NCBI GenBank assembly: GCA_900163555.1 | Contig: FUHX01000041.1 | Span: forward strand, 1-64,000 | Reading direction: 5' to 3' | DNA from: Actinomycetales bacterium JB111 | Lineage (GTDB): Bacteria; Actinomycetota; Actinomycetes; Actinomycetales; Actinomycetaceae | Length of the DNA: 64,000 nucleotides | Shown here: positions 19,197-43,231 of the stretch, in pieces | Numbering within the stretch: position 1 is the stretch's first letter | How the letters are laid out: each line of letters opens with the position of its first letter | Position numbers and translations under genes: made by a program | Notes under the pieces: model-generated | What the model was told of the DNA's origin: nothing | Databases searched by the model: none | What the model saw: the letters and a program-made list of their open reading frames with translations, nothing else

Positions 19197-19672
19197 CCGG
19201 ACCCGGCGCGGACGGACTGTCCGTGACGGTCGTGACGAGCCGCGTCGAGCTCGAGGAGTGCTGGCGGATCCGGTTCGCCGTGTTCGTCGACGAGCAGGAC
19301 GTGCCCGCCGAGATGGAGGTCGACGACCTCGACACCGCCGTGACGACCACGCACGTCCTCGCCACCGTCGCGGGCTCGGCGGTGGCAACGGCACGCCTGC
19401 TGCCCGTCGAACCGGGGGTGGTCCGGATCGGCCGTGTCGCCGTGGCCCGCGAGGCGCGGGGGACCGGCGCGGGACGCGCCGTGATGGAGGCGCTGCACGA
19501 CGTGGCACTCGCCACGCACGCGGGTCCCGACGGCGGCGTGCGCGTCGACATCGAGGCTCAGGAGCACGCCATCCCGTTCTACTCGCGCCTCGGCTACGCG
19601 CTCGTCGACGACCGGCGCTACCTGGACGCCGGCATCTGGCACCGGGACATGGCCCTCGATCTTCCTCGCTGA
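19193..19672 (+). CDS. GNAT family N-acetyltransferase
   Basis: A 159-residue acetyltransferase from the GTG at 19193, which overlaps the rluD stop; the longer frame upstream is inside rluD. The GNAT fold is recognisable from [12 protein letters not shown], the acetyl-CoA loop [18 protein letters not shown], and the C-terminal PFYSRLGY. The substrate cannot be told from sequence. Its stop codon lies at the edge of a repeat array that follows. Confidence 0.85.
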
Positions 19673-19794
19673 CCGCTGACGGCGGGTGTCGCTGACGGCC
19701 GGCCCGCTGACGGCCGGCCCGCTGACGGCGGACCCGCGGCACCGAACCCCGCGGCACCGAACCCCGCTGCACCGAACACCGCGACACGCCCGAC
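19667..19794. repeat. 15-bp periodic repeat array after the GNAT gene
   Basis: Starting over the GNAT stop codon, the heptamer CGCTGAC occurs at 19667 and 19674. A strict 15-base period follows: three units of the form CGCTGACGGCCGGCC (19690, 19705, 19720), then, in the same register, units of a second form CGCGGCACCGAACCC (19735, 19750, with degenerate copies at 19765 and 19780). The array fills most of the gap before dnaE. No gene is seen in it. Confidence 0.8.
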
Positions 19795-19851
19795 ACGCCG
19801 GGACCTGCTGCGCGGTGCTGGTCGGGGTCGGCGAGTGTCGGCGGAGGGACC

Positions 19852-19857
19852 TAGCCT
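19852..19857 (+). promoter_or_regulatory. -10 box (TAGCCT) for leaderless dnaE
   Basis: TAGCCT ends 6 bases before the dnaE ATG, and no Shine-Dalgarno sequence fits. Transcription would start at or next to the A of the start codon. Confidence 0.6.
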
Positions 19858-19863
19858 GGGGGC

Positions 19864-22800
19864 ATGGCTCCGTCAGTGAACCCCGAGGATTTCGTCCACC
19901 TCCACGTCCACACGGACTACTCGATGCTCGACGGGGCGGCGAAGATCAGCCAGCTCGTCGACGAGGCGGCGGACAAGGGGCAGAAGGCCGTCGCGATCAC
20001 GGACCACGGCTACGTCTTCGGCGCCTACGAGCTCTACGCGGCCGCCAAGAAGCGCGGGATCAAGCCGATCATCGGCGTCGAGGCGTACGTGACGCCCGGG
20101 ACCTCCCGCTTCGACAAGAAGACGCGCGTGCGGTGGGGCGAGGAGTGGCAGAAGTCCGACGACGTCTCCGCCTCCGGCGCGTACACGCACCTGACGATGC
20201 TCGCGCGGTCGACCGAGGGCATGCACAACCTCTTCCGGATGGCCTCGCACGCCTCCCTCGACGGGCAGATGGGCAAGTGGCCGCGGATGGACCGCGACCT
20301 GCTGCAGCAGTACTCGACCGGGCTCATCGCCTCCACGGGCTGCCCCTCCGGCGAGGTCCAGACCCGCCTGCGCCTGGGCCAGGTGGACGAGGCGGTCAAG
20401 GCCGCCGGCGAGCTGCAGGAGATCTTCGGCCGGGAGAACTTCTACGTCGAGATCATGGATCACGGCAACGAGTTCGAGAAGAAGACGATGCCGATGCTCT
20501 TCGACCTCGCCAAGCGCATCGACGCGCCGCTGCTCGCGACGAACGACTCGCACTACGTGACCGCCGACCAGCGCGCCGTGCAGGACGCCATGCTGTGCAT
20601 CAACAGCGGCAGCACGATGGACGACCCGAACCGCTTCAAGTTCGACGGCACGGGCTACTACCTGCGCTCCGCCCAGGAGATGTGGGACCTGTTCGCCGAC
20701 CACCCGGACGCCGTCCGGAACACGCTGCTCGTCGCCGAGCAGTGCGACGTCCAGTTCCACACGGCCGCGGACGGCGCGAACTTCATGCCGAGGTTCGACG
20801 TGCCGCCCGGCGAGGACGAGCACTCCTGGTTCATCAAGGAGGTCGAGAAGGGCCTGGAGTACCGGTACCCCGACGGCATCCCGGACCACGTGCGCAAGCA
20901 GGCCGAGTACGAGGTCGGCGTCATCACCCAGATGGGCTTCCCCGGCTACTTCCTCGTCGTCGCGGACTTCATCAACTGGGCCAAGGAGAACGGCATCCGC
21001 GTGGGTCCGGGCCGTGGGTCCGGCGCGGGATCGATGGTCGCGTACGCGCTGCGGATCACGGACCTCGACCCGCTCGTGCACGGGCTCATCTTCGAGCGGT
21101 TCCTGAACCCGGACCGCGTCTCCATGCCCGACTTCGACGTGGACTTCGACGAGCGCCGGCGTGGCGAGGTCATCGACTACGTCGTGCGCAAGTACGGCGA
21201 CGACCGTGTCGCCCAGGTCGTCACCTACGGCGTCATCAAGTCCAAGCAGGCACTCAAGGACTCCGCCCGCGTACTCGGCTACCCGTTCGCGATGGGGGAG
21301 AAGCTGACCAAGGCGATGCCCCCCGCCATCATGGCCAAGGACATCCCACTCGGCGACATCGAGAACCCGAGCTCCAAGCGGTACGCCGAGGCGGGGGAGT
21401 TCCGCTCGGTCGTCGCCGCGGACCCGGACGCCAAGCGCGTGTTCGAGATGGCGCAGGGCCTCGAGGGGCTGACCCGTCAGTGGGGCGTGCACGCCTGCGC
21501 GGTCATCATGTCCAGCGCGCCGCTGACAGACGTCATCCCGGTCATGCGGCACCCGCGCGACGAGTACATCCTCACGCAGTTCGACTACCCCACGTGCGAG
21601 GGGCTCGGCCTGCTGAAGATGGACTTCCTCGGCCTGCGCAACCTCACGGTGCTCGACGACGCGATCCGGAACATCGAGCGCAACGGCAAGGAGCCGGTCG
21701 ATCTCGAGCACCTCGAGCTCGACGACAGGAGGACGTACGAGCTGCTCGCCCGCGGCGACTCCCTCGGCGTGTTCCAGCTCGACGGTGGCGGCATGCGCAC
21801 CCTGCTGCGGCAGATGAAGCCGGACAACTTCGAGGACATCTCCGCCGTCGGCGCGCTGTACCGGCCCGGCCCGATGGGCGCGAACTCGCACACGAACTAC
21901 GCGCTGCGCAAGAACGGCCTGCAGAAGGTTGAGCCGATCCACCCTGAGCTGGAGGAGCCGCTCGCCGACATCCTCGACACGACCTACGGCCTGATCGTCT
22001 ACCAGGAGCAGGTCATGGCCATCGCCCAGAAGGTCGCCGGGTACACGCTCGGCCAGGCGGACCTGCTCCGCCGCGCGATGGGCAAGAAGAAGAAGGCGGA
22101 GCTGGACAAGCAGTTCGCCGCCTTCGAGGCCGGGATGCTCGAGCGCGGCTACAGCAAGACCGCGGTCGACACCCTGTGGGGCATCCTCCTGCCGTTCTCC
22201 GACTACGCGTTCAACAAGGCGCACTCCGCCGCCTACGGGCTCGTCTCGTACTGGACCGCATACCTCAAGGCCCACTACCCGGTCGAGTACATGGCCGCGC
22301 TGCTCACAAACTCCCAGGAGAACAAGGACCGCCTCGGCCTGTACCTCGCGGAGTGCCGGCACATGGGCATCACCGTCCAGGCGCCGGACGTCAGCACGTC
22401 GGCCGCCGACTTCACGCCGGTCGGCGAGGAGATCAAGGTCGGGCTCGGCGCCGTCCGCAACGTCGGCGCGAACGTCGTCGCCGGGATCATCAGCGCGCGC
22501 GAGGGGAAGGGCGAGTTCACGTCCTTCCAGGACTTCCTCGACAAGGTGCCGGCCGTCGTCTGCAACAAGCGGACGATCGAGTCGCTCATCAAGGCCGGGG
22601 CGTTCGACACGCTCGGTCACACGCGGCGCGCCCTTGTGGCGCGGCACGAGGAGGCCGTGGACGCGGTCGTCGACGTCAAGCGCAACGAGGCGCACGGCCA
22701 GTTCGACCTCTTCGCGGCGGTCGGTGGGGACGAGGCGTCCTTCGACATCGAGATCCCGGACCTGCCCGAGTGGGACAAGCGGGAGAAGCTCGCCTTCGAG

Positions 22801-23424
22801 CGGCACATGCTCGGCCTGTACGTCTCCGACCACCCGCTCGCGGGGCTCGAGGGCTCGCTCGGGCAGCACGCCGATACGCAGATCACCGACCTCACCGGCG
22901 CGAACGAGGAGGGAAACGTGGACGGGCGCCGGTGCACGATCGCGGGCCTGGTGACCTCCGTGCAGCGCAAGCTCACCAAGCAGGGCAACCCGTGGGCGAT
23001 CGCCACCGTCGAGGACCTCGGCGGCTCGATCGAGGTCATGTTCTTCCCGCAGTCGTACGTGGGGATCTCCCACGCGCTCGCGGAGGACACGATCGTGGCG
23101 GTCAAGGGGCGGGCGTCGGTGCGGGACGACCAGGTCCAGATCGTCGCGGACTCGATGTCGATGCCGAACCTCCAGGACGCCTCCGGCCCGCTCACCCTTC
23201 ACCTGCCCGCGCACCGGGTGAGACCGCCGCTCATCGAGCGGCTCCGCTCGGTGCTCAGCGAGCACCCGGGAACGTCCGAGGTGCGCATGGTGGTCGAGGA
23301 GTCGGCCGTGCACACGGTCCTGTCGCTGGCCGACAAGTTCCGGGTCGAGCCGTCGCCCGCGCTGTTCGGCGACCTCAAGGCTCTCCTCGGTCCGGGATGC
23401 CTCGGTCCGGTGGTCGCGGCATGA
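19864..23424 (+). CDS. dnaE: DNA polymerase III alpha subunit (DnaE)
   Basis: Replicative polymerase of 1186 residues. The N-terminal PHP domain keeps its histidine-rich metal site (HLHVHTDYSMLDG), which in actinobacterial DnaE1 is a proofreading exonuclease. The polymerase core has the catalytic aspartates in PDFDVDFDERRR. A helix-hairpin-helix region and an OB domain follow (about 1000-1090), then the tau-binding tail. The start lies directly behind a -10 box. Its TGA overlaps the ATG of the next gene. Confidence 0.96.
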   Translation: MAPSVNPEDFVHLHVHTDYSMLDGAAKISQLVDEAADKGQKAVAITDHGYVFGAYELYAAAKKRGIKPIIGVEAYVTPGTSRFDKKTRVRWGEEWQKSDDVSASGAYTHLTMLARSTEGMHNLFRMASHASLDGQMGKWPRMDRDLLQQYSTGLIASTGCPSGEVQTRLRLGQVDEAVKAAGELQEIFGRENFYVEIMDHGNEFEKKTMPMLFDLAKRIDAPLLATNDSHYVTADQRAVQDAMLCINSGSTMDDPNRFKFDGTGYYLRSAQEMWDLFADHPDAVRNTLLVAEQCDVQFHTAADGANFMPRFDVPPGEDEHSWFIKEVEKGLEYRYPDGIPDHVRKQAEYEVGVITQMGFPGYFLVVADFINWAKENGIRVGPGRGSGAGSMVAYALRITDLDPLVHGLIFERFLNPDRVSMPDFDVDFDERRRGEVIDYVVRKYGDDRVAQVVTYGVIKSKQALKDSARVLGYPFAMGEKLTKAMPPAIMAKDIPLGDIENPSSKRYAEAGEFRSVVAADPDAKRVFEMAQGLEGLTRQWGVHACAVIMSSAPLTDVIPVMRHPRDEYILTQFDYPTCEGLGLLKMDFLGLRNLTVLDDAIRNIERNGKEPVDLEHLELDDRRTYELLARGDSLGVFQLDGGGMRTLLRQMKPDNFEDISAVGALYRPGPMGANSHTNYALRKNGLQKVEPIHPELEEPLADILDTTYGLIVYQEQVMAIAQKVAGYTLGQADLLRRAMGKKKKAELDKQFAAFEAGMLERGYSKTAVDTLWGILLPFSDYAFNKAHSAAYGLVSYWTAYLKAHYPVEYMAALLTNSQENKDRLGLYLAECRHMGITVQAPDVSTSAADFTPVGEEIKVGLGAVRNVGANVVAGIISAREGKGEFTSFQDFLDKVPAVVCNKRTIESLIKAGAFDTLGHTRRALVARHEEAVDAVVDVKRNEAHGQFDLFAAVGGDEASFDIEIPDLPEWDKREKLAFERHMLGLYVSDHPLAGLEGSLGQHADTQITDLTGANEEGNVDGRRCTIAGLVTSVQRKLTKQGNPWAIATVEDLGGSIEVMFFPQSYVGISHALAEDTIVAVKGRASVRDDQVQIVADSMSMPNLQDASGPLTLHLPAHRVRPPLIERLRSVLSEHPGTSEVRMVVEESAVHTVLSLADKFRVEPSPALFGDLKALLGPGCLGPVVAA

Positions 23425-24005
23425 GCGAGGAGTCCTCGCCCGCGACCGACGCGTCACGGGCGTGGCACGCCCTCGTCGATCCCGACGAGCTCGGTTCGCT
23501 GCATCGGACGGCCGAGTTGATCACCCTCGTCCAGCAGCGGGACTGGCCGATCGATCCGGCCGTGCTGTGGGTAGCGCTCACCAGGGCGGAGCCGCTGGCC
23601 GCGTGGCTCGGCAGGCCCGACGCCGACCTCGGCCCGGGCGCGAAGGTCGCGATCGCCCAGAGCGAGGACGCGTCGGTGGGTGCCCAGGTCGTCGAGTGGC
23701 AGCCCGGCGGGAGGATCCTGCTCGAGTGGCGCGCTCCGGGGGAGGACGTCGCGTGGGTCGACCTCGCGATGGAGCCCGTGGTCGCCGCAGACTCACCGCG
23801 CACGCGGCTGCGGCTGTCCTACGTCGCGGCGGACGAGGCGCAGGTGCGCTCGGCCGCGGTCGCGTGGCTGTCGTTCCTCGACGTGCTCGGCGAGATCACG
23901 GGTGCCGTGCCGGTGCCCCCGGACTCGACCCCGGCGCTGCGTTCGATCGAGCGGATGGCGATCGCCGCCCAGGTCATCGAGAGCGTACCGATCCAGGAAC
24001 GGTGA
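23421..24005 (+). CDS. Unrecognised SRPBCC-like (AHSA1-type) protein
   Basis: A 194-residue acidic protein whose ATG overlaps the dnaE stop in an ATGA arrangement. It has no signal peptide or membrane segment. The pattern of WxxLT...PLAxWLG, then a strand-rich middle (GGRILLEWRAPGED), then a C-terminal helix, resembles START/SRPBCC proteins such as the AHSA1 family; this is a weak structural guess. Coupling to dnaE suggests shared expression, not necessarily shared function. Confidence 0.6.
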   Translation: MSEESSPATDASRAWHALVDPDELGSLHRTAELITLVQQRDWPIDPAVLWVALTRAEPLAAWLGRPDADLGPGAKVAIAQSEDASVGAQVVEWQPGGRILLEWRAPGEDVAWVDLAMEPVVAADSPRTRLRLSYVAADEAQVRSAAVAWLSFLDVLGEITGAVPVPPDSTPALRSIERMAIAAQVIESVPIQER

Positions 24006-24019
24006 CGATCGAGGCGTGA

Positions 24020-24142
24020 CGTCGGAGCGGTGCCGACTGGGTGGTGACCCGGGAGCAGTGCGTCGGAGCGGTGCCGACCGTGTGGTGACCCGGGAGCAGT
24101 GCGTCGGAGCGGTGCCGACCGGGTGGTGACCCGGGAGCAGTG
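24020..24142. repeat. Three tandem copies of a 41-bp unit
   Basis: Perfectly phased units begin at 24020, 24061 and 24102, each opening with CGTCGGAGCGGTGCCGAC and ending in CCCGGGAGCAGTG. They differ only at one or two positions near base 20 of the unit. The array starts 15 bases after the stop codon of the preceding gene. It contains no open frame worth calling. Confidence 0.9.
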
Positions 24143-24222
24143 ACGTCCCAGGCGCGACGAACGCCGTGGCTGACGTCGCGTCGCGCGGGCGCGACGGGCC
24201 CGTCGCCCGACGGCCCGCTGAC

Positions 24223-24468
24223 CTACGCCGCGCCGCCCTCGGCCTCGACGCGGACGGACTCCACGCCGGAGGCGGTGCGCACGGAGATGACCTCGCCGCC
24301 GTGCAGCTGACGGCCGCGGCGCGTGTCGACCTCCCCGTCGACCGTGACGTCCTCGGCCGCGAGCAGGTCGCGGGCGTCGGCACCGGTGTCCGCGATGCCG
24401 GTGATCTGGAGCAGCTGTCCGAGCCGGACGGGCACGCGGACGGTCACAGGGGTGGGTTGAGCGGTCAT
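24223..24468 (-). CDS. S4-domain RNA-binding protein (YbcJ/YaaA type)
   Basis: An 81-residue protein that is almost entirely one S4 RNA-binding fold: [10 protein letters not shown], then [18 protein letters not shown], the usual signature of the small YaaA/YbcJ group. Such proteins are thought to bind structured RNA or ribosomal particles. The start ATG follows GGAGG on the minus strand; the longer open frame behind it spans hisD and is rejected. It is divergent from hisD across 81 bases. Confidence 0.85.
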
Positions 24469-24536
24469 GCGCCCATCCTCCCATCCGCGCGATCTCATCC
24501 CGCCGGGGCCCCGCACGCCGCCGCGGGTGCGCGCCG

Positions 24537-24542
24537 TACGCT
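24537..24542 (+). promoter_or_regulatory. -10 box (TACGCT) for leaderless hisD
   Basis: TACGCT ends 7 bases before the hisD ATG and there is no ribosome-binding site. This predicts a leaderless message. Confidence 0.6.
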
Positions 24543-24549
24543 GGGCGCC

Positions 24550-25887
24550 ATGCTGCGTCGGATTGACCTGAGGGGCCGTGACCTGAGCCGCGCCGAGCTC
24601 GCGGATACGCTTCCGCGCGCCGAGGTGGACGTCGCGTCCGCCGCGGAGGTCGTGCGCCCGATCCTCGACGACGTCAGGGACCGCGGAGCGGTCGCCGTCC
24701 GCGACGCCGCCGAGCGCCTCGACGGCATCCGCCCGGAGCACCTGCGGGTGCCTGCGGAGGCCCTGACCTCGGCCCTCGAGGGGCTCGATCCGTCGGTCCG
24801 CGCGGCACTGAGCCGCGCGGCGGAGCACCTGCGCGCCGGCCACGCCGCCCAGGTTCCCGCGGACAGGTCCACCGAGATCACGCCCGGCGGCGTCGTGCAC
24901 CAGCGGTGGCTCCCGGTGCGCCGCGTGGGCCTGTACGCGCCGGGCGGCCTGGCCGTGTACCCCTCGAGCGTGATGATGAACGTCGTCGCCGCACAGTCGG
25001 CGGGCGTCGAGGAGCTCGCCGTCGTCTCTCCGCCGCAGGCGGCGTTCGACGGGCTGCCGCACCCGACGATCCTCGCGGCCTGCGCCCTGCTCGGCGTGAC
25101 CGAGGTGTACGCCGCCGGCGGCGCCCAGGCCATCGGTCTGCTCGCCTACGGCGCTGCGGGCGAGGAGGGCACCCCCGACGACGCCGTGCTCGCCGAGCCG
25201 GTCGACGTCGTCACCGGACCGGGCAACGTCTACGTGGCGGCCGCCAAGCGCCTCGTGCACGGACTGGTCGGGATCGACGCCGAGGCGGGGACCACCGAGA
25301 TCGCCGTCCTCGCGGACGCGAGCGCGGACCCGCTGCACGTCGCGGCGGACCTGCTCAGCCAGGCCGAGCACGACCCGGCCGCGGCCAGCGTGCTCATCAC
25401 GGCGGACGAGGACTTCGCGAACGAGGTCGACGCCCAGCTCGAGGGCCTGGCCGCCTCCACGCGCCACGCCGAGCGCGTGGCGACGGCCCTCGGTGGCCGG
25501 CAGTCCGCGATCGTGCTCGTCGACGACCTCGACGCCGGCGTGCGCGTGGCCGACGCCTACGCGGCCGAGCACCTCGAGGTGCAGACCGAGGACGCCGCGG
25601 CCGTCGCCGGGCGGATCCGCAGCGCGGGCGCGATCTTCGTGGGCGGCTACTCGCCGGTCCCGTTGGGCGACTACCTGGCCGGGTCGAACCACGTGCTCCC
25701 CACCGCCGGGACCGCCCGCTTCGCCTCGGGGCTGTCGGTGATGGCTTACCTCAAGCCGGTCCAGGTCATCGAGTACACGAAGGACGCGCTTGCCGCCGAG
25801 GCGCCGTACGTGCGCGCGTTCGCCGAGGCAGAGGATCTGCCCGCGCACGCGGACGCGGTCAACGTCCGCCGGTTCTCCAGCAGGTAG
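24550..25887 (+). CDS. hisD: Histidinol dehydrogenase
   Basis: Zn-dependent enzyme (445 residues) that carries out the last two oxidations of histidine synthesis. Family landmarks include [17 protein letters not shown], the NAD loop [25 protein letters not shown], and the C-terminal [10 protein letters not shown] and GSNHVLPT segments. The ATG at 24550 is chosen because a -10 box lies just before it. In most relatives hisC follows at once; here a 6.5-kb block of other genes separates them. Confidence 0.96.
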
Positions 25888-26023
25888 ACCGGCCGCCGCC
25901 GTGGGGCGCGCACACGCGCGCCCCGGGCGGGTGCGGACCAGCCCCCGCCGGGCGGGCGCCTGGCCCCGCGCGGCCCGCGGCATGCCCGTCCGCCAAGCGG
26001 CGTACTGCGGGCCTGCGGGCCCT

Positions 26024-26131
26024 CCCTCCCTCCGCTCCGCGCACGGCAGGCCCTCCCTCCGCTCTGCGCACGGCAGGCCCTCCCTCCGCTCTGCGCACGG
26101 CGGGCCCTCCCTCCGCTCAGCGCACGGCGAG
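26024..26131. repeat. Four tandem 27-bp units ending over the recQ stop codon
   Basis: Units begin at 26024, 26051, 26078 and 26105, each starting CCCTCCCTCCGCTC and containing GCGCACGGC. The last unit overlaps the recQ stop codon (26117-26119) and its final codons, so the array looks like repeated duplication of the gene's 3' end. Period 27 is a multiple of three, so the minus strand stays open in another frame, but that is a by-product. The rest of the 25888-26023 gap holds nothing I recognise. Confidence 0.85.
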
Positions 26132-28282
26132 CACGAGGGGGACGACGCCGGCCGCGCCCGCGAGCCGCAGGTGCCGCGCGGCGATCGTGAGCGTCCAGCC
26201 GGAGTCCGTGTACTCGTCCACGAGCATGACCCGCCGGCCCGGCAGTCCCTCGAGCGCGGCCTGGCCGAGCCCGAGCGTGAGCCTTCCGTGGACGTCCGCG
26301 AGCCTGCTGGCCGAGTTGACGTCGTAGCGCCCGGGCGGCACGCCCTCGGCCGGGTAGAACGCGCCGACGACCGGCGCACCCAAGTGCCGCGCCACCCGGG
26401 CGGCGAGGTCCCGCATGAGGGTGGGGCGCGTGGCGGAGTCGATCGCGACGACGCCGTCGATGCCCGCCAGCGGACCGGTGCGTCCGTCCGACCCCTCCCA
26501 GGCCGCGAGCGCGACGTCGAGGGCGCGGGCTGCGTCGACCGGCAGCGGACCGTCCTCGGCGGACGCTCCGACCGCTGCCCGCAGCGCCCCGGCGAGCCCG
26601 ATGCCGTCAAGCCGACCGACGGCGAGGCCGGACTCGGCCCGCTCGCCCTCGGGGATCTTGCCGGCCAGGTCGACACCGAGGCGGGCCATCCCGCTCGGCC
26701 ACTGCCGTCGGGGCTCGATCTCGATGCCGGGCCGATCCAGCCCTGCGCGGGCCTGCTCGGTGGCCGCGGCGTCGACGGCCGTGCCCAGGTCGATGCCGCC
26801 GCACAGGTCGCAGCGGCCGCAGCGCCAGGCGTCCTCGAGGTCGGGGTCGTCGAGGTGTGCCCGCAGGACGGCCATCCGGCAGGCCGGCGCCTCGAGCCTC
26901 GCGTACTCGAGCATCGCCTCGGCCTCCGCCCGGCGGGCGGCCTCCACGCGCTCGTAGCGTTCGGCGTCGTACGACCACGGACGCCCCGTCGACTCCCATC
27001 CGCCGCGCACGCGGCGGACCACGCCGTCGACGTCGAGCACCTTGAGCATCGTCTCCAGCCGGGCGCGCCGCAGGTCGACCGCGGTCTCGAGCCGGGGCGT
27101 GGACAGCACGCCGCCCTCCTCGAGAGCCGCGAGCACGTGCCGCACGGTGTCCTCCGGCGGGAAGGCCAGGGAGGCGAAGTACTCCCAGATCGCCCGGTCC
27201 TCACGGCCGGGCAGCAGGACGACGTCGGCGCGGTCGACGCCGCGCCCCGCGCGACCGACCTGCTGGTAGTAGGCCACCGGCGACGACGGCGAGCCGAGGT
27301 GCACGATGAAGCGGAGGTCGGGCTTGTCGAAGCCCATGCCGAGCGCGGAGGTCGCGACGAGGGCCTTCACGCGGTTGTGGCGCAGGTCCTCCTCGAGCTG
27401 TTCGCGCTCGGCCGGCTCGGTGCGCCCCGTGTAGGCGCGCACCTCTTGGCCGGCCGCACGCAGCTGCTCGGCGACCGCGTGGGCGGCGGAGACCGTCAGC
27501 GTGTAGACGATGCCGGAGCCTTCCCAGGCCGCGAGGGCCTGGGCGAGCCAGGCCACCCGCTCGGCGTCGTCGTCGAGCCGGATCGAGGCGAGGTGGAGGG
27601 CCGGCCGGTCGAGGCTGCCGCGCAGGACGAGGACTTCATCGGCCCCCGGTCCTCCGCCCAGCTGCTCCGCGACGTCGCGGGTCACGCGGGCGTTCGCGGT
27701 CGCGGTCGTCGCCAGCACGGGCACGCCCGTGGGGAGGTCCCCGAGCAGGGTCCGGATGCGGCGGTAGTCGGGGCGGAAGTCGTGCCCCCAGTCGGAGATG
27801 CAGTGCGCCTCGTCGATGACGACGAGGCCGGCGTCCGCGGCGAGCCGGGGGAGCACCTCGTCGCGGAACGCGGGGTTGTTGAGGCGTTCGGGGCTGACGA
27901 GAAGGACGTCGACGTCTCCGGCGGCGATCGCGGCGTGGACCTCGTCCCACTGCTGCACGTTGGTCGAGTTGAGCGTGACCGCGCGGATGCCCGCGCGACC
28001 TGCCGCCGCGATCTGGTCGCGCATGAGCGCGAGCAGGGGGGAGACGATGACCGTGGGGCCAGCGCCCTCGGCGCGGCGCAGGGCGGTGGCGACGAAGTAG
28101 ACCGCCGACTTCCCCCAGCCGGTGCGCTGGACGACCAGGACGCGCCGGGACTCCACCACGAGCGCCTCGATCGCCCGCCACTGGTCGGCGCGGAGAGAGG
28201 CGTCCTCGCGGCCGACGAGCCGGCGCAGCGCCTCCTCGGCGCGCTGGCGGAGGGCTGGTGCGGGGGAGTGCGTGGCGGTCAC
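26117..28282 (-). CDS. recQ: RecQ-like DNA helicase with C-terminal phosphoribosyltransferase-like domain
   Basis: A 721-residue superfamily 2 helicase. The N-terminal half has the Q motif, Walker A in QRTGWGKSAVYF (about 50-65), the DEAH-type box IDEAHCISDWGHDFRPDY and the motif VI region QQVGRAGRG. Zinc-binding cysteines follow in RCGRCDLCGG. Instead of RQC or HRDC domains, the C-terminal 110 or so residues look like a type I phosphoribosyltransferase, with VMLVDEYTDSGWTL (685-698) resembling the PRPP loop. The GTG start lies 6 bases after a TAGCGT -10 box. It probably acts in DNA repair; what the tail binds is unknown. Confidence 0.87.
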   Translation of the reverse strand: MTATHSPAPALRQRAEEALRRLVGREDASLRADQWRAIEALVVESRRVLVVQRTGWGKSAVYFVATALRRAEGAGPTVIVSPLLALMRDQIAAAGRAGIRAVTLNSTNVQQWDEVHAAIAAGDVDVLLVSPERLNNPAFRDEVLPRLAADAGLVVIDEAHCISDWGHDFRPDYRRIRTLLGDLPTGVPVLATTATANARVTRDVAEQLGGGPGADEVLVLRGSLDRPALHLASIRLDDDAERVAWLAQALAAWEGSGIVYTLTVSAAHAVAEQLRAAGQEVRAYTGRTEPAEREQLEEDLRHNRVKALVATSALGMGFDKPDLRFIVHLGSPSSPVAYYQQVGRAGRGVDRADVVLLPGREDRAIWEYFASLAFPPEDTVRHVLAALEEGGVLSTPRLETAVDLRRARLETMLKVLDVDGVVRRVRGGWESTGRPWSYDAERYERVEAARRAEAEAMLEYARLEAPACRMAVLRAHLDDPDLEDAWRCGRCDLCGGIDLGTAVDAAATEQARAGLDRPGIEIEPRRQWPSGMARLGVDLAGKIPEGERAESGLAVGRLDGIGLAGALRAAVGASAEDGPLPVDAARALDVALAAWEGSDGRTGPLAGIDGVVAIDSATRPTLMRDLAARVARHLGAPVVGAFYPAEGVPPGRYDVNSASRLADVHGRLTLGLGQAALEGLPGRRVMLVDEYTDSGWTLTIAARHLRLAGAAGVVPLVLAVR

Positions 28283-28288
28283 GACCCC

Positions 28289-28294
28289 ACGCTA
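28289..28294 (-). promoter_or_regulatory. -10 box (TAGCGT) for leaderless recQ
   Basis: On the minus strand TAGCGT ends 6 bases before the recQ GTG, with no ribosome-binding site between. Confidence 0.5.
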
Positions 28295-28366
28295 CGCAGG
28301 GTCGGGGACATCCCGCCGACGAGGGGAGGCCGCCTGTGGAGCGCGGCAGATGGACGGGCCCCTGTG

Positions 28367-28490
28367 GATCAGGCCGGAGGGATCAGCTGCGCGCGATCAG
28401 GCCGGAGGGATCAGCTCCGTGGCATCAGCGCGGCGCGATCAGTCCGGAGAGGTCAGCGCCGCGGATATCGGTGCCGCGGGATCAGGCCGG
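28367..28490. repeat. Dispersed repeats of GATCAGGCCGGAGG
   Basis: Copies begin at 28367, 28395, 28437 (GATCAGTCCGGAGA) and 28480 (GATCAGGCCGG). The first two are 28 bases apart and the rest 42-43. Shorter ATCAG fragments lie between them. The last copy covers the stop codon of the minus-strand DUF952 gene at 28482-28484. The 28295-28366 stretch before them shows nothing else. Confidence 0.75.
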
Positions 28491-28850
28491 CGGGCCGACG
28501 ACGAACTCGCCGTCGACAAAGCCGGCGGGCCGGACCGCGACGACCGCGTCCATCGGGATGGGCCCGTACACGTGGGGGTAGACCTCGCCGCCGGCGGAGG
28601 AGGACTCGGCCTCGTCCCGGATGGTCAGCCCGCAGGAGCGGAGGACGTCGGGGTCGAGGACGAGGACGACCAGGCCGTCTGAGTCCTCGGCGAACAGTGC
28701 CTTGGCGACGTCCTCGACCTGGTGGTCGTAGGAGCAGTGGACGAATCCGGCCGACTCCAGCGTCACGCCGCGCGTCGACATCCGGTACATCCCCGTCTCG
28801 CGTGCGACCGCCAGGTCGGCGTCGTCCGCAATGTGCCAGATCTTTTCCAC
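28482..28850 (-). CDS. DUF952 family protein
   Basis: A 122-residue soluble protein. The DUF952 pattern is clear: IWHIADD near the start, GFVHCSYDHQV in the middle, VLVLDPDVL, and VYPHVYGPIPMDAVV near the end. The function of this family is not established. The GTG start lies 6 bases after a TAGCCT -10 box on the minus strand, so it is probably a leaderless monocistron. Confidence 0.85.
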   Translation of the reverse strand: MEKIWHIADDADLAVARETGMYRMSTRGVTLESAGFVHCSYDHQVEDVAKALFAEDSDGLVVLVLDPDVLRSCGLTIRDEAESSSAGGEVYPHVYGPIPMDAVVAVRPAGFVDGEFVVGPPA

Positions 28851-28856
28851 GGGGCC

Positions 28857-32405: not shown

Positions 32406-32412
32406 GGGACCC

Positions 32413-35430: not shown

Positions 35431-35441
35431 GGACGACGCCT

Positions 35442-37015: not shown

Positions 37016-37070
37016 CGTGACGAGACGCAGCGCACGCTCCGCACCCTCCTCCGGCGCGGGGCATCGCTGC

Positions 37071-37296
37071 TAGACTGTTCCTCGACCAGTCGGCGCACTC
37101 GTGGTGCCGGCGAGCAAGCGGAGAGATCCCACCTTGGCACCCGTCATCGGGGGCCGGGTCCTGGTCGGACGCACCACCCAGCGTGCGTCCGCGTGCGCAA
37201 CCGCGTACCCAGGCCTCCGCGCTCGAGCGTCGGAGGCCTTTGTTGTTGCCGCTGCCGCTCGGGATGACCCAGCCCGAGATTCACAAGGAGTGCAGC
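37071..37296 (+). promoter_or_regulatory. infC leader with promoter and attenuator
   Basis: The hexamer TAGACT (37071-37076) is a good -10 box. The transcript would have a leader of about 215 bases before infC. It contains a strong hairpin (37211-37239) followed by a T-rich run, so expression of infC-rpmI-rplT is probably set by termination inside the leader. L20- or IF3-dependent leaders are known in other bacteria; the ligand here is inference. Confidence 0.7.
37211..37250 (+). terminator. Intrinsic terminator / attenuator in the infC leader
   Basis: AGGCCTCCG (37211-37219) pairs with CGGAGGCCT (37231-37239), with an inner CGC/GCG extension around a TCGA loop, and is followed by TTGTTGTTG. 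This is the only hairpin I found in the window that has a T-rich tail. Confidence 0.8.
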
Positions 37297-38385
37297 ATCA
37301 GCGAGCCCCGCATCAACGACCGCATCCGTGTCCCCGAGGTCCGACTCGTAGGCCCGGGAGGAGAGCAGGTCGGCGTCGTCCGCGTGGAGGACGCACTTCG
37401 TCTTGCGCAGGAGGCGGATCTCGACCTCGTCGAGGTCGCCCCCGATGCGCGACCCCCGGTCGCGAAGCTCATGGACTTCGGCAAGTTCAAGTACGAGTCC
37501 GACGTCAAGGCGCGCGACACCCGCCGCAAGCAGGCGAACACGGCTCTCAAGGAGATCCGGTTCCGCCTGAAGATCGACGCCCACGACTACGCGACCAAGA
37601 AGGGTCACGTCGTGCGGTTCCTCGAGGGCGGCGACAAGGTCAAGGTGATGATCATGTTCCGCGGCCGCGAGCAGTCGCGCCCGGAGATGGGCATCCGTCT
37701 CCTGCAGCGCCTCGCGGAGGACGTCTCGGACCTCGGTTCGGTCGAGTCCTCGCCGCGCCAGGACGGACGCAACATGACCATGGTCATCGGCCCGCACCGC
37801 AAGAAGTCCGATGCGCGCAACGAGCAGCTGACGAAGCGTGCCGCCGAGAAGGAGGCGCGCCGGGCCTCGCAGGCCGACAAGCCGGCGACCAAGGCGCAGC
37901 CCGAGCCGAAGACCGACACCTCCGAGCCGGCGCCGAACGCCCCGGTGATCGAGGCCCCGGTGTTCGAGAGGGCCCCGCGCAGCGCGACGACCACCGAGAC
38001 GCGCCCGGCGAGCACGCCCCGTCCGGCCTCCTCCGGCCGTTCGTCGTCGTCCTCCCGTCCGGCGTCGTCGTCGAGTCGCACCGCTCCCCGGTCCGGCTCG
38101 TCCGCTCCGCGGTCCGGCTCGTCTGCCCCGCGCTCGACCTCGTCCGCTCCGCGGTCCGGCTCGCCCCGTCCCTCGGGTTCGGGGACGTCGACCCCGCGCC
38201 CCGCGTCGAGCCCGAGCAGCCAGACCACCACCGGCGGCACGGCCGCCGGTGCGTCCAAGCCGGCCGCCACGCCGAAGCCCGCCTCGGGCTCGTCGTCGGC
38301 CGCACCGAAGCCTGGAGCGCCGAAGCCGTCGGCGACGCCCAAGCCCGCAGCGCCGAAGCCCTCGAGCAAGGGCGCGTCGGCCTAG
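37297..38385 (+). CDS. infC: Translation initiation factor IF-3 with a long Ser/Pro/Ala-rich tail
   Basis: IF-3 binds the 30S subunit and checks start-codon pairing. Residues 1 to about 175 form the standard two domains: [17 protein letters not shown], then [18 protein letters not shown], then the C-domain. A tail of about 185 residues rich in Ser, Pro, Ala and Thr, with repeated PRSGSSA, follows. AAGGAG at 37285-37290 sits 6 bases before ATC (37297), so a non-standard AUC start is likely, as E. coli infC uses AUU. An in-frame ATG at 37264 is the alternative; it has no good ribosome-binding site. Confidence 0.85.
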
Positions 38386-38467
38386 AGCCACACCGTACGT
38401 CCGCCGGTCGTCAGGTCCGGTGGAGCAGCACGACTCGCGCCCGAAGGGGCGCGACCGAGAGGGAATC

Positions 38468-38662
38468 ATGCCGAAGAACAAGACGCACTCCGGTGCGAAG
38501 AAGCGGTTCCGGGTCACCGGCACCGGCAAGATCAGGCACGAGCGCACGCGCAAGGTGCACAAGTTCGCCGAGCGTTCGCGCCGCCAGGTGCGCCGCCTGT
38601 CCAACGACGGTGAGATCACCGGCGCCGACGCCCGCAACGTGAAGAAGATGCTCGGCCTCTGA
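38468..38662 (+). CDS. rpmI: Ribosomal protein bL35
   Basis: 64-residue, strongly basic large-subunit protein. The canonical start MPKNKTHSGAKKRFRVTGTG is complete. GAGAGGGA precedes the ATG at 38468. It sits in the universal infC-rpmI-rplT order. Confidence 0.97.
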   Translation: MPKNKTHSGAKKRFRVTGTGKIRHERTRKVHKFAERSRRQVRRLSNDGEITGADARNVKKMLGL

Positions 38663-38688
38663 GGCCGGGTCTGTAAGGAGCACCTGAC

Positions 38689-39069
38689 ATGGCACGTGTG
38701 AAGAGGGCCGTCAACGCCCAGAAGAAGCGCCGGAGCACGCTCGAGAAGGCCGCCGGCTACCGCGGTCAGCGTTCGCGCCTGTACCGCAAGGCGAAGGAGC
38801 AGGTCCTCCACTCGGAGACCTACGCCTTCCGCGACCGCAAGGCTCGCAAGGGCGACTTCCGTCGCCTGTGGATCCAGCGCATCAACGCCGCTGTCCGCGC
38901 CGACGGCCTGACCTACAACCGCTTCATCCAGGGTCTCAAGATCGCCGAGGTCGAGGTGGACCGCCGCATGCTCGCCGAGCTCGCCGTGAGCGACCCGGCC
39001 GCGTTCTCCGCCCTCGTCGAGGTCGCGAAGAAGGCTCTGCCGACCGACGTCAACGCCCCCGCGGCCTGA
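38689..39069 (+). CDS. rplT: Ribosomal protein bL20
   Basis: 126-residue basic protein of the large subunit, needed early in 50S assembly, and the autoregulator of this operon in several bacteria. The start [15 protein letters not shown] and the segment [13 protein letters not shown] are typical. AAGGAG precedes the ATG. It ends the translation operon. Confidence 0.97.
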
Positions 39070-39085
39070 CGCGACACGCCACCCC

Positions 39086-40006
39086 GTGCCCCGCATGGGA
39101 TCGACCGGGCGCCCGGAAGCCCCGCTGACCAACCCCCGCTCCGAGCGGGTGAAGAAGGTCGCGGCGCTTGCCGGGCGCTCGGCGCGTTCACGCCACGGAC
39201 GGTTCCTCGTCGAGGGCCCGCAGGCCGTCCGCGAGATCGTCGCCCACGCGCCGGACCACGTGCGCGACCTCTACCTGGCCGAGGCCATGGTCCTGCGCCA
39301 CCACGACATCGTCGAGGTCGCCGCCGAGGCGGGCATCCATCTCCACGAGGCCGACGAGCGCGTCATGCGCGCCATGAGTCCCGACTGCCAGGGCGTCCTC
39401 GCGGTCGCCGACCTGAGCGCAGTAGCCGCGCCGCCTCTGGATGATCTGCTCGCGGAAGCCCCGAGGCTCGTCGTCCTGCTCGCGGCCGCGAACGACCCGG
39501 GCAACGCCGGGACCGTCCTGCGCACGGCCGACGCCGCCGGAGCCGACGCCGTGCTGCTCGGCACCGGCTCCGTCGAGGTGACGAACCCGAAGGTCGTCCG
39601 ATCGACGGCCGGCTCCCTCTTCCACCTCCCCGTCCTCGGGGACCTCGACGTGGCGGACGCCGTCCACGACGCACGCGCCGCCGGGCTGCAGGTGCTCGCC
39701 GCGGACGGGGCCGGCGACTGGGACGTCGACGAGCTCGCCGACCGCACCTTCGCCCGCGCCCACGGGCTCGGGCTCGCGACGTCGGACGAGCTGAGCGCCA
39801 CCTCCCTCGTCGCCCCCGACCTCGCGGCGCCCACGCTCTGGCTCGTCGGGAACGAGGCCCACGGACTGTCCCGCGCCGAGCGCGACCTGGCCGACGCCGT
39901 CGTGAAGGTCCCGATCCACGGGGCCGCCGAGTCGCTCAACCTCGCGGTCGCGACCGCGCTGTGCCTGTATGCCTCCGCCCGCGCGCAGCGGCGCGAGGTC
40001 GGGTAG
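39086..40006 (+). CDS. TrmH/SpoU family RNA 2'-O-methyltransferase
   Basis: A 306-residue SPOUT methyltransferase with an N-terminal substrate-binding domain and a C-terminal knotted domain. The three SpoU motifs are visible: NDPGNAGTVLRTADA, LVGNEAHGLS and IHGAAESLNLAVATAL. The target is probably rRNA, as the gene follows rplT. GTG at 39086 and ATG at 39095 are both possible starts. Confidence 0.9.
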   Translation: MPRMGSTGRPEAPLTNPRSERVKKVAALAGRSARSRHGRFLVEGPQAVREIVAHAPDHVRDLYLAEAMVLRHHDIVEVAAEAGIHLHEADERVMRAMSPDCQGVLAVADLSAVAAPPLDDLLAEAPRLVVLLAAANDPGNAGTVLRTADAAGADAVLLGTGSVEVTNPKVVRSTAGSLFHLPVLGDLDVADAVHDARAAGLQVLAADGAGDWDVDELADRTFARAHGLGLATSDELSATSLVAPDLAAPTLWLVGNEAHGLSRAERDLADAVVKVPIHGAAESLNLAVATALCLYASARAQRREVG

Positions 40007-40026
40007 GGCCCCACTCACCGACCGAC

Positions 40027-41760
40027 CTACCGCGCGCGGACGACCCGCTCCTCCGTCCACGTCGGCTCGGCGCTCTCCCGCACGGACCCGTCGGAGCCGA
40101 GGATCAGGAACCGGTCGAAGTCGCGGGCGAACCAGCGGTCGTGCGTGACCGCGAGGACCGTCCCCTCGAACTGACGCAGCGCCTCCTGCAACGCCTCGGC
40201 GGAGTGCAGGTCGAGGTTGTCGGTCGGCTCGTCCAGGAGCAGCAGCGTCGCGCCGGACAGCTCGAGCAGGAGGATCTGCATCCGGGCCTGCTGCCCGCCG
40301 GACAGCGTCTCGAAGCGCTGGTCCGCGGCGCCGGCCAGGCCGTAGCGGTCCAGGGCGCGCGCGGCGAGGTCGCGGGGACGGCCGTCACGGTGGTCGTCAC
40401 CCCGGTGCAGGATCTCGAGCAGGGTACGGCCGGCCAGCCCCTCGTGGTCGTGCATCTGCTGGAACCACCCCGGCCGCACGCGGCTGCCGAGCTGCGCGAG
40501 ACCCGTGTGGGGGACCGGTTCCACGCCGACGTCCCCGACCGGCTCGTGCTCCTTCTCGGGCGTCGTCCCGCCCGCGGCCAGGAGCCGCAGCAGGTGGGAC
40601 TTCCCCGAGCCGTTGGCGCCGAGGACCGCGACCCGCTCGCCGAAGAAGATCTCGGCGCTGAAAGCCTCCATCAGCCGGCGCGCCCGGTCCTCCGGAGCGC
40701 CGGGATCGAGGAGCACGACGTCGGTGAGCGTGACCGCCCGCTTGGCCGTCCTGCCCCCGGTGAGGTTCATCCGCACCGACTGCGCGGAGGAGACCTTCTC
40801 GGGCGGCCCCGCGTCCTCGAAGCGAGCCAGTCGGGTCCGCGCGGCCGAGTACCTGGACGACATGTCCGAGTTGTAGGCGGCCTTCTGCTTGTACATGGCG
40901 ACGAGCGCGCGCAGCTTCTTGCGCTCCTCCGTCCACCGGCGCAGGCGCTCGTCCAGGTCCGCGTTGCGAGCCTCGCGCGCCTCGTGCCAGGTGGCGAACG
41001 ACCCCGGATGCGTCCACGCCGAGGCGCCGGCCGCGCCCGGCTCGAGCGTGACGACCGAGGTCGACACCGCGGACAGCAGCTCCCGGTCGTGGCTGACGAG
41101 CAGGATCGACTTCTCCGACGCGGTCAGCCGTTCCTCGAGCCACAGCTTCGCCGGGACGTCGAGGAAGTTGTCGGGCTCGTCGAGCAGCAGCAGGTCGGCG
41201 GGACCGCTCAGCAGGGCCTCGAGGACGAGCCGCTTCTGCTCGCCGCCGGACAGGGTCGACGCGTGCCGCCATCGCGCGCGCTCGTAGCCGACGCCGAGCG
41301 CGGCCGCGCACACGGTGTCCCAGACGGTCCCCTCGAACTCGTAACCGCCGATCTCCGCCCAGTCGGCGAGAGCCTGCGCGTACGCGAGCTGGGCGGGCTC
41401 GTCATCGCGCTCCATGACGTCCAGCTCGGCGCGGTCGAGCGCGCGGGCGGCCAGGGCGATGCGGTGCGGGGCGACGTCGACGAGGAGGTCGTGCACCGTG
41501 AGCGGCTCGCCGCCACCCGGCCCGTCCGTCACCCGCCCGACCAGCTGGCTCATGTACTGCCACGTCCCCTGGATGGTGACGGCGCCGTCGTCGGGCTTCG
41601 CCCGCCCCGTGATCATGCGGACGAGCGTGGTCTTGCCCGCGCCGTTGGGGCCGACGAGCGCGACCCGCCCGCCCTCGGGCACGCGGAAGGAGACAGAGTC
41701 GAGGAGGGGCCGACCGTCCGGGAGCGCGAAGGAGACACCGGAGACGTCGAGGAAGGCCAT
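40027..41760 (-). CDS. ABC-F family ATPase
   Basis: A 577-residue protein with two ATP-binding cassettes and no membrane segments, the ABC-F layout of ribosome-associated translation factors and antibiotic-resistance proteins. Walker A motifs are GPNGAGKTT (about 37) and GANGSGKSH (about 380), and signatures are LSGGEQKRL and LSGGQQARMQ. The linker between cassettes is charged. I cannot say whether it is a housekeeping or a resistance member. It is convergent with the methyltransferase, only 20 bases apart. Confidence 0.88.
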   Translation of the reverse strand: MAFLDVSGVSFALPDGRPLLDSVSFRVPEGGRVALVGPNGAGKTTLVRMITGRAKPDDGAVTIQGTWQYMSQLVGRVTDGPGGGEPLTVHDLLVDVAPHRIALAARALDRAELDVMERDDEPAQLAYAQALADWAEIGGYEFEGTVWDTVCAAALGVGYERARWRHASTLSGGEQKRLVLEALLSGPADLLLLDEPDNFLDVPAKLWLEERLTASEKSILLVSHDRELLSAVSTSVVTLEPGAAGASAWTHPGSFATWHEAREARNADLDERLRRWTEERKKLRALVAMYKQKAAYNSDMSSRYSAARTRLARFEDAGPPEKVSSAQSVRMNLTGGRTAKRAVTLTDVVLLDPGAPEDRARRLMEAFSAEIFFGERVAVLGANGSGKSHLLRLLAAGGTTPEKEHEPVGDVGVEPVPHTGLAQLGSRVRPGWFQQMHDHEGLAGRTLLEILHRGDDHRDGRPRDLAARALDRYGLAGAADQRFETLSGGQQARMQILLLELSGATLLLLDEPTDNLDLHSAEALQEALRQFEGTVLAVTHDRWFARDFDRFLILGSDGSVRESAEPTWTEERVVRAR

Positions 41761-41828
41761 GGGCCCATCGTCGGCCGTCGGCGCGCCTGGGGACAGCGAA
41801 TATCCGGCCGACGGGGCCGGGAGCGGGC

Positions 41829-42251
41829 TCAGCCGTGGACGTACGAGGCGAGCTGGTCCCGTTCGGCCTGGAGCTCGTCGAGGCGGTGCTTGACGACGTC
41901 GCCGATGGAGACGATCGCGACCATCGCGCCGTCCTCGACCACGGGGATGTGCCGCACGCGGCGCTCGGTCATCGTGCGGGCGAGCGCCTCCAGGTCGTCG
42001 GCGGGGGTGCAGGTGACGACGTCGCGCACCATGACGTCCCTGACAAGCCGTCCCGCCGAGTCCTGGCCCTCGACGAGCGGGATGAGGTCGCGCTCGGAGA
42101 CGATGCCGTCGACGCGGCCCTCGCCGTCGGAGACGACCACCGCGCCGATCCTGTGCCGCGTGAGGAGCGCGATGAGCTCACCGACCGTGGAGTCGGAACC
42201 GATCGTGACCACCTGCTGGCCCTTCCTGCGGACCACATCCTCGATACGCAT
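41829..42251 (-). CDS. Tandem CBS-domain protein
   Basis: A 140-residue protein made almost only of two CBS domains (about 8-62 and 72-128), with VGELIALLTRHRIGAVVVSD and MTERRVRHIPVVEDG. Such stand-alone CBS pairs bind adenine nucleotides or act as sensors. The ATG lies 5 bases after a TAGGAT -10 box, so the message is probably leaderless. Confidence 0.9.
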   Translation of the reverse strand: MRIEDVVRRKGQQVVTIGSDSTVGELIALLTRHRIGAVVVSDGEGRVDGIVSERDLIPLVEGQDSAGRLVRDVMVRDVVTCTPADDLEALARTMTERRVRHIPVVEDGAMVAIVSIGDVVKHRLDELQAERDQLASYVHG

Positions 42252-42256
42252 GCCGC

Positions 42257-42262
42257 ATCCTA
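42257..42262 (-). promoter_or_regulatory. -10 box (TAGGAT) for leaderless CBS gene
   Basis: Minus-strand TAGGAT ends 5 bases before the ATG at 42251. Confidence 0.55.
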
Positions 42263-42288
42263 CGTCCGGAGTATGGCGCGTGTCACTG

Positions 42289-43107
42289 TCAGGCGTCGCC
42301 GGCGGGCGCGTCGGGACCGCCGCCGGTGTACCCGTAGAGGTCGCGCATGGTCTCGTTCACCCAGATCTCCGCCCCGCCGTCGGGGTCGTCGATCCGCAGC
42401 GAGCGGCCGTACGACTCGTCGATGACGCGGGAGCCGACGCCCGCGCGCCGCAGGTGCTCGGCGAGCGCGTCGACGTCGGGGTGCTCGAGGCCCGGGACCG
42501 CCGACGGCTCCGTGGGCACGCCTGCTCCGTTCGCGTGGACGGCGTGCAGCCCGTCGGCGGCCACGAGGTCGACCCAGTTCCCCGAGTGCGAGGCGTTCCG
42601 GCGGGCGAGGCCGAGCGCCTCGAGGAGCGCGGCCGCGCCCTCGACCTCGTCGGTCATCCACAGCGGGGCGACCGCGAGATCGGCGCCGGCGCCGAACGCG
42701 GGCGTGGGGGAGTACTCCACCTGGGGCGCGGGCGCGTGCTCGCCCGGGGCGTCGGGCTCGTCGATCCCGAACGTGAGCCCGTCCGGCCCGGTGACCCGCA
42801 GCTGCCGCCCGTGGTCGACCGGGACGACGTCGAACGACCCGCCCGCGTGCTCGACGCCCTCGCGCGTCGCGGCGACGAACGCGTCCAGGTCCGGCGTCTC
42901 GAAGCCGAGGGCCCACCGGGCGACGGGGCCGTGGCTCGAGGCGTCCGGGGCCCCCGGGTGGACGCCGACGCGTCCGGACCCCAGGGCGACGACGGACCAG
43001 CCGTCGTGGTCGACGACGAGGCGGCCGCCCGCGGCGGTGAGCAGGTCCCGCCACCGGCCGGTGTGCGGGGTGAAGACGATCGGGCGGACGGTCAGGGGCG
43101 GGATCAT
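42289..43107 (-). CDS. Two-domain VOC (glyoxalase/dioxygenase-fold) protein
   Basis: A 272-residue protein with two vicinal-oxygen-chelate domains (about 1-125 and 140-265), seen in VGFETPDLDAF-like and DPDGGAEIWVNE segments. Members include glyoxalases, dioxygenases and antibiotic-binding proteins; the metal ligands are not clear enough to choose. The start MIPPLTV at 43107 is behind GGAGGC; the longer frame upstream is low-complexity and runs through the RHH gene. It lies downstream of the RHH gene on the same strand. Confidence 0.75.
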   Translation of the reverse strand: MIPPLTVRPIVFTPHTGRWRDLLTAAGGRLVVDHDGWSVVALGSGRVGVHPGAPDASSHGPVARWALGFETPDLDAFVAATREGVEHAGGSFDVVPVDHGRQLRVTGPDGLTFGIDEPDAPGEHAPAPQVEYSPTPAFGAGADLAVAPLWMTDEVEGAAALLEALGLARRNASHSGNWVDLVAADGLHAVHANGAGVPTEPSAVPGLEHPDVDALAEHLRRAGVGSRVIDESYGRSLRIDDPDGGAEIWVNETMRDLYGYTGGGPDAPAGDA

Positions 43108-43186
43108 CGGGAGGCCTCCAGGGGGTGTCGTGCGGTCGAGCGGTCCCGGGGACGAGCGGTCGTGCCCGGCCGGCTCTCGGCGGCTC

Positions 43187-43231
43187 GGGGTGACGTCGGT
43201 CGGGGTGGCGTGGGTCGAGGTGACGTCATGA
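43187..43231. repeat. Three 15-bp units covering the RHH stop codon
   Basis: GGGGTGACGTCGGTC (43187), GGGGTGGCGTGGGTC (43202) and GAGGTGACGTCATGA (43217) repeat with a 15-base period. The last unit contains the stop codon of the ribbon-helix-helix gene at 43226-43228. The remaining 43108-43186 stretch holds shorter imperfect repeats of GAGCGGTC but no gene. Confidence 0.7.

Follow-up and report, generated by a model that had tools for sequence, protein, structure and literature searches.

Why should short tandem repeats lie on, or just past, the stop codons of bacterial genes? The question is raised by a 64-kb window of the Actinomycetales bacterium JB111 genome (contig FUHX01000041.1, positions 1 to 64,000; "the window" denotes this whole stretch), for which a first-pass annotation had reported five repeat arrays, each at the 3' end of a gene: a GNAT acetyltransferase gene, an AHSA1 gene that it termed SRPBCC-like, recQ, a DUF952 gene and a ribbon-helix-helix (RHH) gene. 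We find that this observation is largely correct, that its interpretation is half correct and that the arrays are ordinary in kind. They are very probably ordinary minisatellite-type arrays that arose by recurrent local duplication and whose position is mainly set by selective tolerance, and a function at the stop codon is not needed to explain them.

All five arrays were recovered by Tandem Repeats Finder (TRF) near the positions first given, with small corrections, and all lie at or shortly past gene 3' ends (Table 1). For each of the five stretches, none of 300 dinucleotide-preserving shuffles matched the score of the real sequence. The first-pass annotation had the stop codon covered in four of the five; this is strictly so for recQ and DUF952, where the codon lies wholly within the array, and borderline for GNAT and RHH. 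At the fifth locus the array starts 14 bases downstream of the AHSA1 stop codon (24003–24005). The GNAT locus consists, according to TRF, of two adjoining 15-bp arrays with different units, and reading of the sequence places a looser CGCTGAC copy over the GNAT stop codon. The DUF952 array was returned by TRF as 14 bp × 9.1, as 42 bp × 3.0 and, for part of its length, with a period of 28. The five loci are a selection. At a score of at least 60 and a period of 10–150, the contig holds 24 arrays, 19 of them inside the window, where six rows make up the five loci, three are intergenic, nine fall entirely within coding sequence and one spans a start.

The order of the units relative to the stop codon is informative. 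A whole stop codon lies inside 26 arrays of score at least 60; it is in the first unit of 25 of them, the exception being an array with an 18-bp in-frame unit. In-phase stop triplets recur in later units of 15 listed stop-containing arrays and are missing from the later units of the other six; this list of 21 is limited to arrays that are less than 60% coding, a filter that the count of 26 does not have. Such an arrangement, with the stop codon in the first unit and copies of it later, is what tandem duplication of a segment with the stop codon yields, and a duplication of this kind leaves the protein unchanged. In the recQ array, the unit with the stop codon has TGA, and the later units have AGA, AGA and GGA at the same place. 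Among 17 recQ orthologues read on the correct strand, the terminus coincides with that of the present gene in 16 and lies one residue further on in the other (the ending is PFVLxxR in 12), so that the TGA is ancestral and the later triplets are decayed copies. Of the coding arrays, 182 of 188 have a unit length divisible by three, as do 29 of 73 intergenic ones and 12 of 23 of those straddling a stop codon; the reading frame therefore matters little or nothing outside genes.

The units of the five loci share no common sequence, in agreement with the first-pass annotation. Six sub-arrays had no off-site match at E ≤ 0.01 in the sampled part of the strain's own genome (1,397,186 of 3,260,975 bases, 46 of 85 contigs whole or in part, 1206 genes called), and the stretch 23990–24170, searched against the whole of this genome, returned only its self match at E ≤ 0.001. 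One 13-mer, CCCGCGGCACCGA, occurs three times in the 1.397 Mb, twice in the second GNAT array (19733–19760) and once in the DUF952 array (28468–28480, minus strand), with the same orientation to the genes at both loci; this sharing is possibly due to chance. Descent of the arrays from one dispersed mobile or repetitive element, comparable to the mycobacterial interspersed repetitive units (MIRUs) that occupy gene junctions in an actinobacterium, would account for a 13-mer common to two loci. However, with unrelated units and, in the 1.397 Mb, no off-site matches and a 13-mer confined to these two loci, we regard such a descent as extremely improbable. Repeated local duplication of gene ends, as had been proposed for the five loci, is right in substance, as the unrelated units and the placement of the stop codon within the arrays indicate.

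In the explanation that we favor, local tandem duplication of roughly 10–60 bp repeatedly and independently creates arrays, most likely by slipped-strand replication at short microhomologies, and the arrays would then grow, mutate and turn over, as judged from a single strain. Of 31 near-perfect two-copy arrays, 16 have at least 3 bases beyond two units (a count set against no formal null), and microhomology-primed slippage would leave such extra bases. A study of a tuberculosis outbreak names strand slippage, in its accessible text, as one of the mechanisms behind repeat variants (PMC12046097). The position of an array would then mainly reflect what selection tolerates, as the overall pattern suggests: within genes the unit lengths are nearly always multiples of three, few arrays lie near starts, and 3' flanks and convergent gaps hold them commonly. 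A duplication that includes the stop codon is as harmless as one confined to the flank, with the first copy keeping the C-terminus and the stop, and the extra copies lying downstream.

The pattern of the five loci is not special to this window. In the own-genome sample, 53 intergenic arrays scored at least 80, whereas five dinucleotide-preserving shuffles averaged 0.2. Gene ends in these analyses came from our own codon-usage gene caller, not from annotation; it missed the S4-domain gene of Table 1 and extended hisD upstream, and very decayed arrays escape TRF. For comparison, 80 named loci were used in full for the recQ-orthologue and array-start-profile counts, and 69 of them (11 mixed or short loci being excluded) for density, coverage and placement, the density test treating them as four groups. 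Per 10 kb of intergenic DNA, we counted 3.3 arrays in the own genome. The density is comparable in G002, a second genus of the family (4.0), in Georgenia/Cellulomonas-type loci (4.8, from 5 arrays) and in Streptomyces (2.0), and it is lower in Demequina (0.8, from 1 array); other Actinobacteria have 3.0. Separately, a tandem array lies in the last 150 bp of 10 of the 68 contig ends of the own genome (C2, C13, C17, C27, C29, C30, both ends of C36, C40 and C79), as compared to 85 of 2000 random 150-mers (P = 0.0008). Assembly may break at arrays, so that both their number and their copy counts could be underestimates.

Relative to genes, the arrays are distributed asymmetrically. Past stop codons, array coverage in the own genome is 5.9% at 0–20 bp, 11.8% at 80–100 bp and 4.4% at 150–250 bp; before start codons it is 0.3% at 0–20 bp, 1.6% at 60–80 bp and 5.9% at 150–250 bp. 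Convergent gaps are covered to 9.4%, tandem (same-direction) gaps to 4.0% and divergent gaps to 2.8%, and the three other sets of Actinobacteria gave the same order of gap types and the same depletion near starts. When stops and starts are compared in symmetric windows, arrays of score at least 60 contain 28 of 1177 stop codons as compared to 2 of 1174 start codons (Fisher P = 8e-7). The enrichment at stop codons that had been put forward for a genome-wide scan is thus present, in 1.40 of 3.26 Mb, in the sense that arrays are commoner after stops than before starts. In Burkholderia pseudomallei, arrays are mostly intergenic, with roughly one third located within genes or immediately upstream of them, according to the available part of that report (PMC1853098); the 3' preference is therefore not to be generalized beyond Actinobacteria.

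Whether the arrays home in on the stop codon itself, rather than on the 3' flank, is a separate matter, and the answer is not clearly. Convergent gaps provide the cleanest test, because no start site is nearby. In these gaps, when the span from −15 to +75 is cut into 15-bp bins, the frequency of array starts over all sets is 24, 32, 22, 19, 27 and 23 per 1000 available stops. This rate is flat (chi-square P = 0.83 for all sets and 0.89 for the own genome), with bins that were picked after the data had been seen. Further out, 3 of 734 start at −30 to −15, and the values past +75 are noisy (9, 10, 35, 28 and 10). Array coverage in the own genome, moreover, climbs out to 100 bp past the stop.

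Several results weigh against an explanation by local duplication and tolerance alone. Tandem gaps do not show a flat profile of array starts (P = 0.028): the starts are densest near the stop, at 21, 29, 18, 13, 13 and 4 per 1000 from −15 to +75. Because the value is back to 20 at 75–90, the rate does not simply taper off as the next gene is approached, and the low values may reflect the control region of that gene. Under a placement model whose null presumes uniform tolerance within gaps, the own genome at score at least 60 has 1.5–2.3 times as many stop-covering arrays as predicted (21 of 87, with 9.1–13.8 expected under six settings, P 0.0001–0.03). The same excess is seen at scores of at least 50 (27 of 129 against 11.6–17.9, P below 0.0001 to 0.018) and at least 80 (14 of 49 against 6.2–9.2, P 0.003–0.07), in the second genus of the family (7 of 30 against 3.0–3.3) and in other Actinobacteria (8 of 27 against 3.6–4.4), and it is weaker and non-significant in Streptomyces (7 of 63 against 4.2–5.4, P 0.12–0.30). 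With all gap types and sets combined, array starts peak at −15 to +15 (35 out of 1545 available stops in one bin and 42 out of 1400 in the next) and are mostly lower past +60; stops with at least 100 bp of room gave 24, 33 and 21 starts in the bins from −15 to +30, as compared to 12–19 per bin at 30–90. The asymmetry between stops and starts also depends on scale: more than 150 bp from genes, the start-side coverage (5.9%) equals or exceeds the stop-side coverage (4.4%), and in 240-bp windows at score at least 50 the contrast shrinks, with an array in 170 of the 1177 windows around stops and in 114 of the 1174 around starts. The share of stop-straddling units divisible by three is slightly above one third (P = 0.048). 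Mismatch repair handles loops of such unit size poorly. For this reason the repair genes make a weak point in favor of the duplication account: no MutS_V match was found in the own genome (control positive in 11 of 14), NucS is present, and NucS leaves indels uncorrected, as far as the accessible text states (PMC8228993). Lastly, the length of an intergenic array of Mycobacterium tuberculosis is reported, in the part of the source available, to correlate with expression of the next gene (PMC2734929), and such arrays can therefore matter.

The excess in tandem gaps and in the placement model, together with the pooled peak, would suit a mechanism linked to gene ends, such as ribosome release, transcription termination, R-loops or conflict between replisome and polymerase, that makes duplications preferentially at stop codons. 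We consider such a mechanism unlikely in view of the convergent gaps, where the rate, in bins chosen post hoc, stays flat from −15 to +75 with no start site to confound it, and of the coverage that climbs out to 100 bp. Because a modest excess is left over from the placement model, gene ends in Actinobacteria could alternatively be read as a weak hot spot at which tandem duplications originate, beyond relaxed selection and within about 15–30 bp of the stop; we hold this to be improbable, and we give as little credence to its conceivable cause, an event at the stop of translation or transcription, or polymerases meeting there. We tentatively put the residual excess down to constraint inside intergenic DNA that the model leaves out; it is not eliminated and is not fully explained. 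The proposed link to the stop codon, as distinct from the rest of the 3' flank, therefore stands in part, with no enrichment in convergent gaps and a modest excess in tandem gaps and in the placement model.

Transcription terminators, or message-stabilizing 3' elements built from a repeated unit, would also be located after genes, and some units contain GC-rich palindromes, e.g. GGCCGGCC in the GNAT array. However, 33 arrays from tandem gaps are folded no more stably than 80 array-free 3' flanks (median z −1.23 as compared to −1.10; P = 0.55), and strong folding is rarer among them (z < −2 in 4 of 33, as compared to 25 of 80, P = 0.036). The sense-strand excess of C over G is slightly but not significantly higher in the arrays (0.132 as compared to 0.051 in control flanks, P = 0.087), which is the direction expected for Rho loading. 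A promoter and terminator scan of 15–30 kb gave two terminator-like sites, with 1.8 expected, neither of them on an array, and an Rfam search of the window gave no family at gathering thresholds. An array lies near the stop in 10 of 98 recQ orthologues, as compared to 119 of 1246 background stops in the named loci (P = 0.86), with unrelated units. A function tied to the recQ gene end would predict more, and a conserved array at the orthologous gene ends is rejected for RecQ; the other orthologue ends with an array (GNAT 1 of 4, dnaE 2 of 13, S4 2 of 7) are too few to use, and the SRPBCC-like, DUF952, RHH and hisD genes yielded none that could be used. Accordingly, we judge terminators or stabilizing elements of this kind to be quite improbable, and the position-dependent function in termination or message stability that had been offered beside duplication is not supported.

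Two further candidates were rejected. The TGA triplets in the GNAT array, 7, 23, 38 and 53 bases past the gene stop, are all out of frame and cannot be in-frame backup stops, and the excess of stop-straddling units divisible by three is too slight to claim a backup function. Repetitive extragenic palindromic (REP) sequences and bacterial interspersed mosaic elements (BIMEs) have an extragenic location in common with the arrays. REPs are described, in the accessible portion of the source, as dispersed palindromic families (PMC3733652). The arrays are not dispersed, as judged from 1.397 Mb, and are not better folded than controls (P = 0.55), so that neither REP/BIME sequences nor tandem intrinsic terminators fit.

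The first-pass annotation knew of no named class that fits, which is too strong: by their tandem structure and locus-specific units, the arrays class as bacterial intergenic minisatellites of the variable-number tandem repeat (VNTR) type, being head-to-tail direct repeats of about 10–100 bp, above chance. The VNTRs of Mycobacterium likewise lie between genes and repeat, in direct tandem, a unit of tens of bp that is specific to each locus. One of them, in the rnc–fpg1 intergenic region, fills 279–358 bp with repeats in the tuberculosis complex, whereas the region is at most 54 bp in the other mycobacteria tabled in the accessible text (PMC2734929); unlike the arrays studied here, it extends to the next start codon, and it is in this region that length is reported to correlate with expression. 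For arrays beginning inside gene ends, the closest published description concerns the tandem repeats of Borg elements. In the available text (PMC9879509), they too are of independent origin, with units all divisible by three in open reading frames and only 14–38% divisible in intergenic DNA, but their units are perfect, A-rich and from another domain of life, while the present arrays are GC-rich and often decayed. The species-specific 20–21-nt tandem repeats of Bacillus and other bacteria are also mostly non-coding and are said, in the part of the paper at hand, to occur in Actinobacteria (PMC8161180); they keep a constant unit size, whereas the unit sizes here vary widely. MIRUs resemble the arrays as repeats at actinobacterial gene junctions and are described, in the text available, as one repetitive family, seemingly mobile, that inserts at start codons (PMC12548453). 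They were rejected as a match, because the units here are unrelated and have no off-site match in 1.397 Mb and the arrays avoid starts (2 of 1174, as compared to 28 of 1177 stops). The TAACTGA direct repeats of marine Beggiatoaceae are mostly intergenic as well, but consist of a single fixed heptamer oriented mostly towards downstream start codons; sets of them overlap stop codons, and insertions are argued to succeed mainly at the protein periphery, as the accessible part of the report has it (PMC4679880). A genome-wide heptamer of this type does not fit periods of 14–41 and unrelated units. In the open-licence PMC literature, as far as titles and the starts of abstracts announce, no test of tandem-array enrichment at bacterial stop codons appeared.

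The genes at the five loci are supported by Pfam, which backs the names GNAT, AHSA1, recQ, DUF952 and RHH_1 and, for the neighbors, S4_2 and Histidinol_dh (hisD). With hisD among the neighbors and 98 recQ orthologues among the fetched loci, the description of these genes as accessory or less conserved is not confirmed. The gene after the second GNAT array encodes 1186 amino acids and presumably resembles dnaE. In the RecQ protein, the helicase domains occupy the N-terminal half, and the C-terminal part, which has no Pfam match, aligns with relatives from many Actinobacteria and includes a stretch, VMLVDEYTDSGWT, that we take to resemble a phosphoribosyltransferase motif. Elsewhere in the window, two plus-strand genes are separated by a 620-bp gap (11666 to 12286) that contains three degenerate arrays (11785–12116) with periods of 30, 15 and 21, all of them more than 60 bp away from both called gene ends. 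Three in-frame arrays (18, 21 and 33 bp) at 38018–38364 lie near the 3' end of the gene at 37264–38385 and encode a low-complexity tail rich in Ser, Pro and Arg and in Lys, Pro and Ala.

Table 1. Repeat arrays at the five loci and associated genes, in window coordinates
Feature	Position	Strand	Basis and context
15-bp tandem array × 4.3, unit CCGCTGACGGCCGGC	19673–19737	+	TRF; abuts GNAT stop (19670–19672)
Second 15-bp tandem array × 3.7, different unit CCCGCGGCACCGAAC	19733–19787	+	TRF; gap between GNAT and dnaE-like genes
41-bp tandem array × 3.1, 95% match	24020–24147	+	TRF; convergent gap between AHSA1/SRPBCC-like and S4-domain genes
27-bp tandem array × 3.9, 96% match	26024–26128	−	TRF; covers recQ stop, convergent gap with hisD
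Degenerate array, about nine 14-bp units, CTGAtc core	28366–28494	−	TRF; covers DUF952 stop
15-bp array × 2.9	43185–43227	−	TRF; reaches two of three bases of RHH stop (43226–43228)
GNAT acetyltransferase gene	19193–19672	+	Pfam PF13673/PF00583; start from own gene caller
S4-domain gene	24226–24468	−	Pfam S4_2; neighbor across convergent gap
RecQ-type helicase gene	26117–28282	−	Pfam DEAD and Helicase_C; 98 orthologues
DUF952 gene	28482–28850	−	Pfam PF06108
Ribbon-helix-helix gene	43226–43420	−	Pfam PF01402 (RHH_1)

Repeats that look designed to sit on stop codons are thus explained by a simple rule, namely that a duplication including the stop codon is invisible to the protein. Stop-centered repeats call for no regulatory reading without further evidence. 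What is worth keeping from these loci is the protein-neutrality of stop-spanning duplications, along with the modest unexplained excess of arrays at stops. Given that such duplications are neutral for the protein, strain-typing markers are well sought, and duplication rates well measured, in the 3' flanks of actinobacterial genes.

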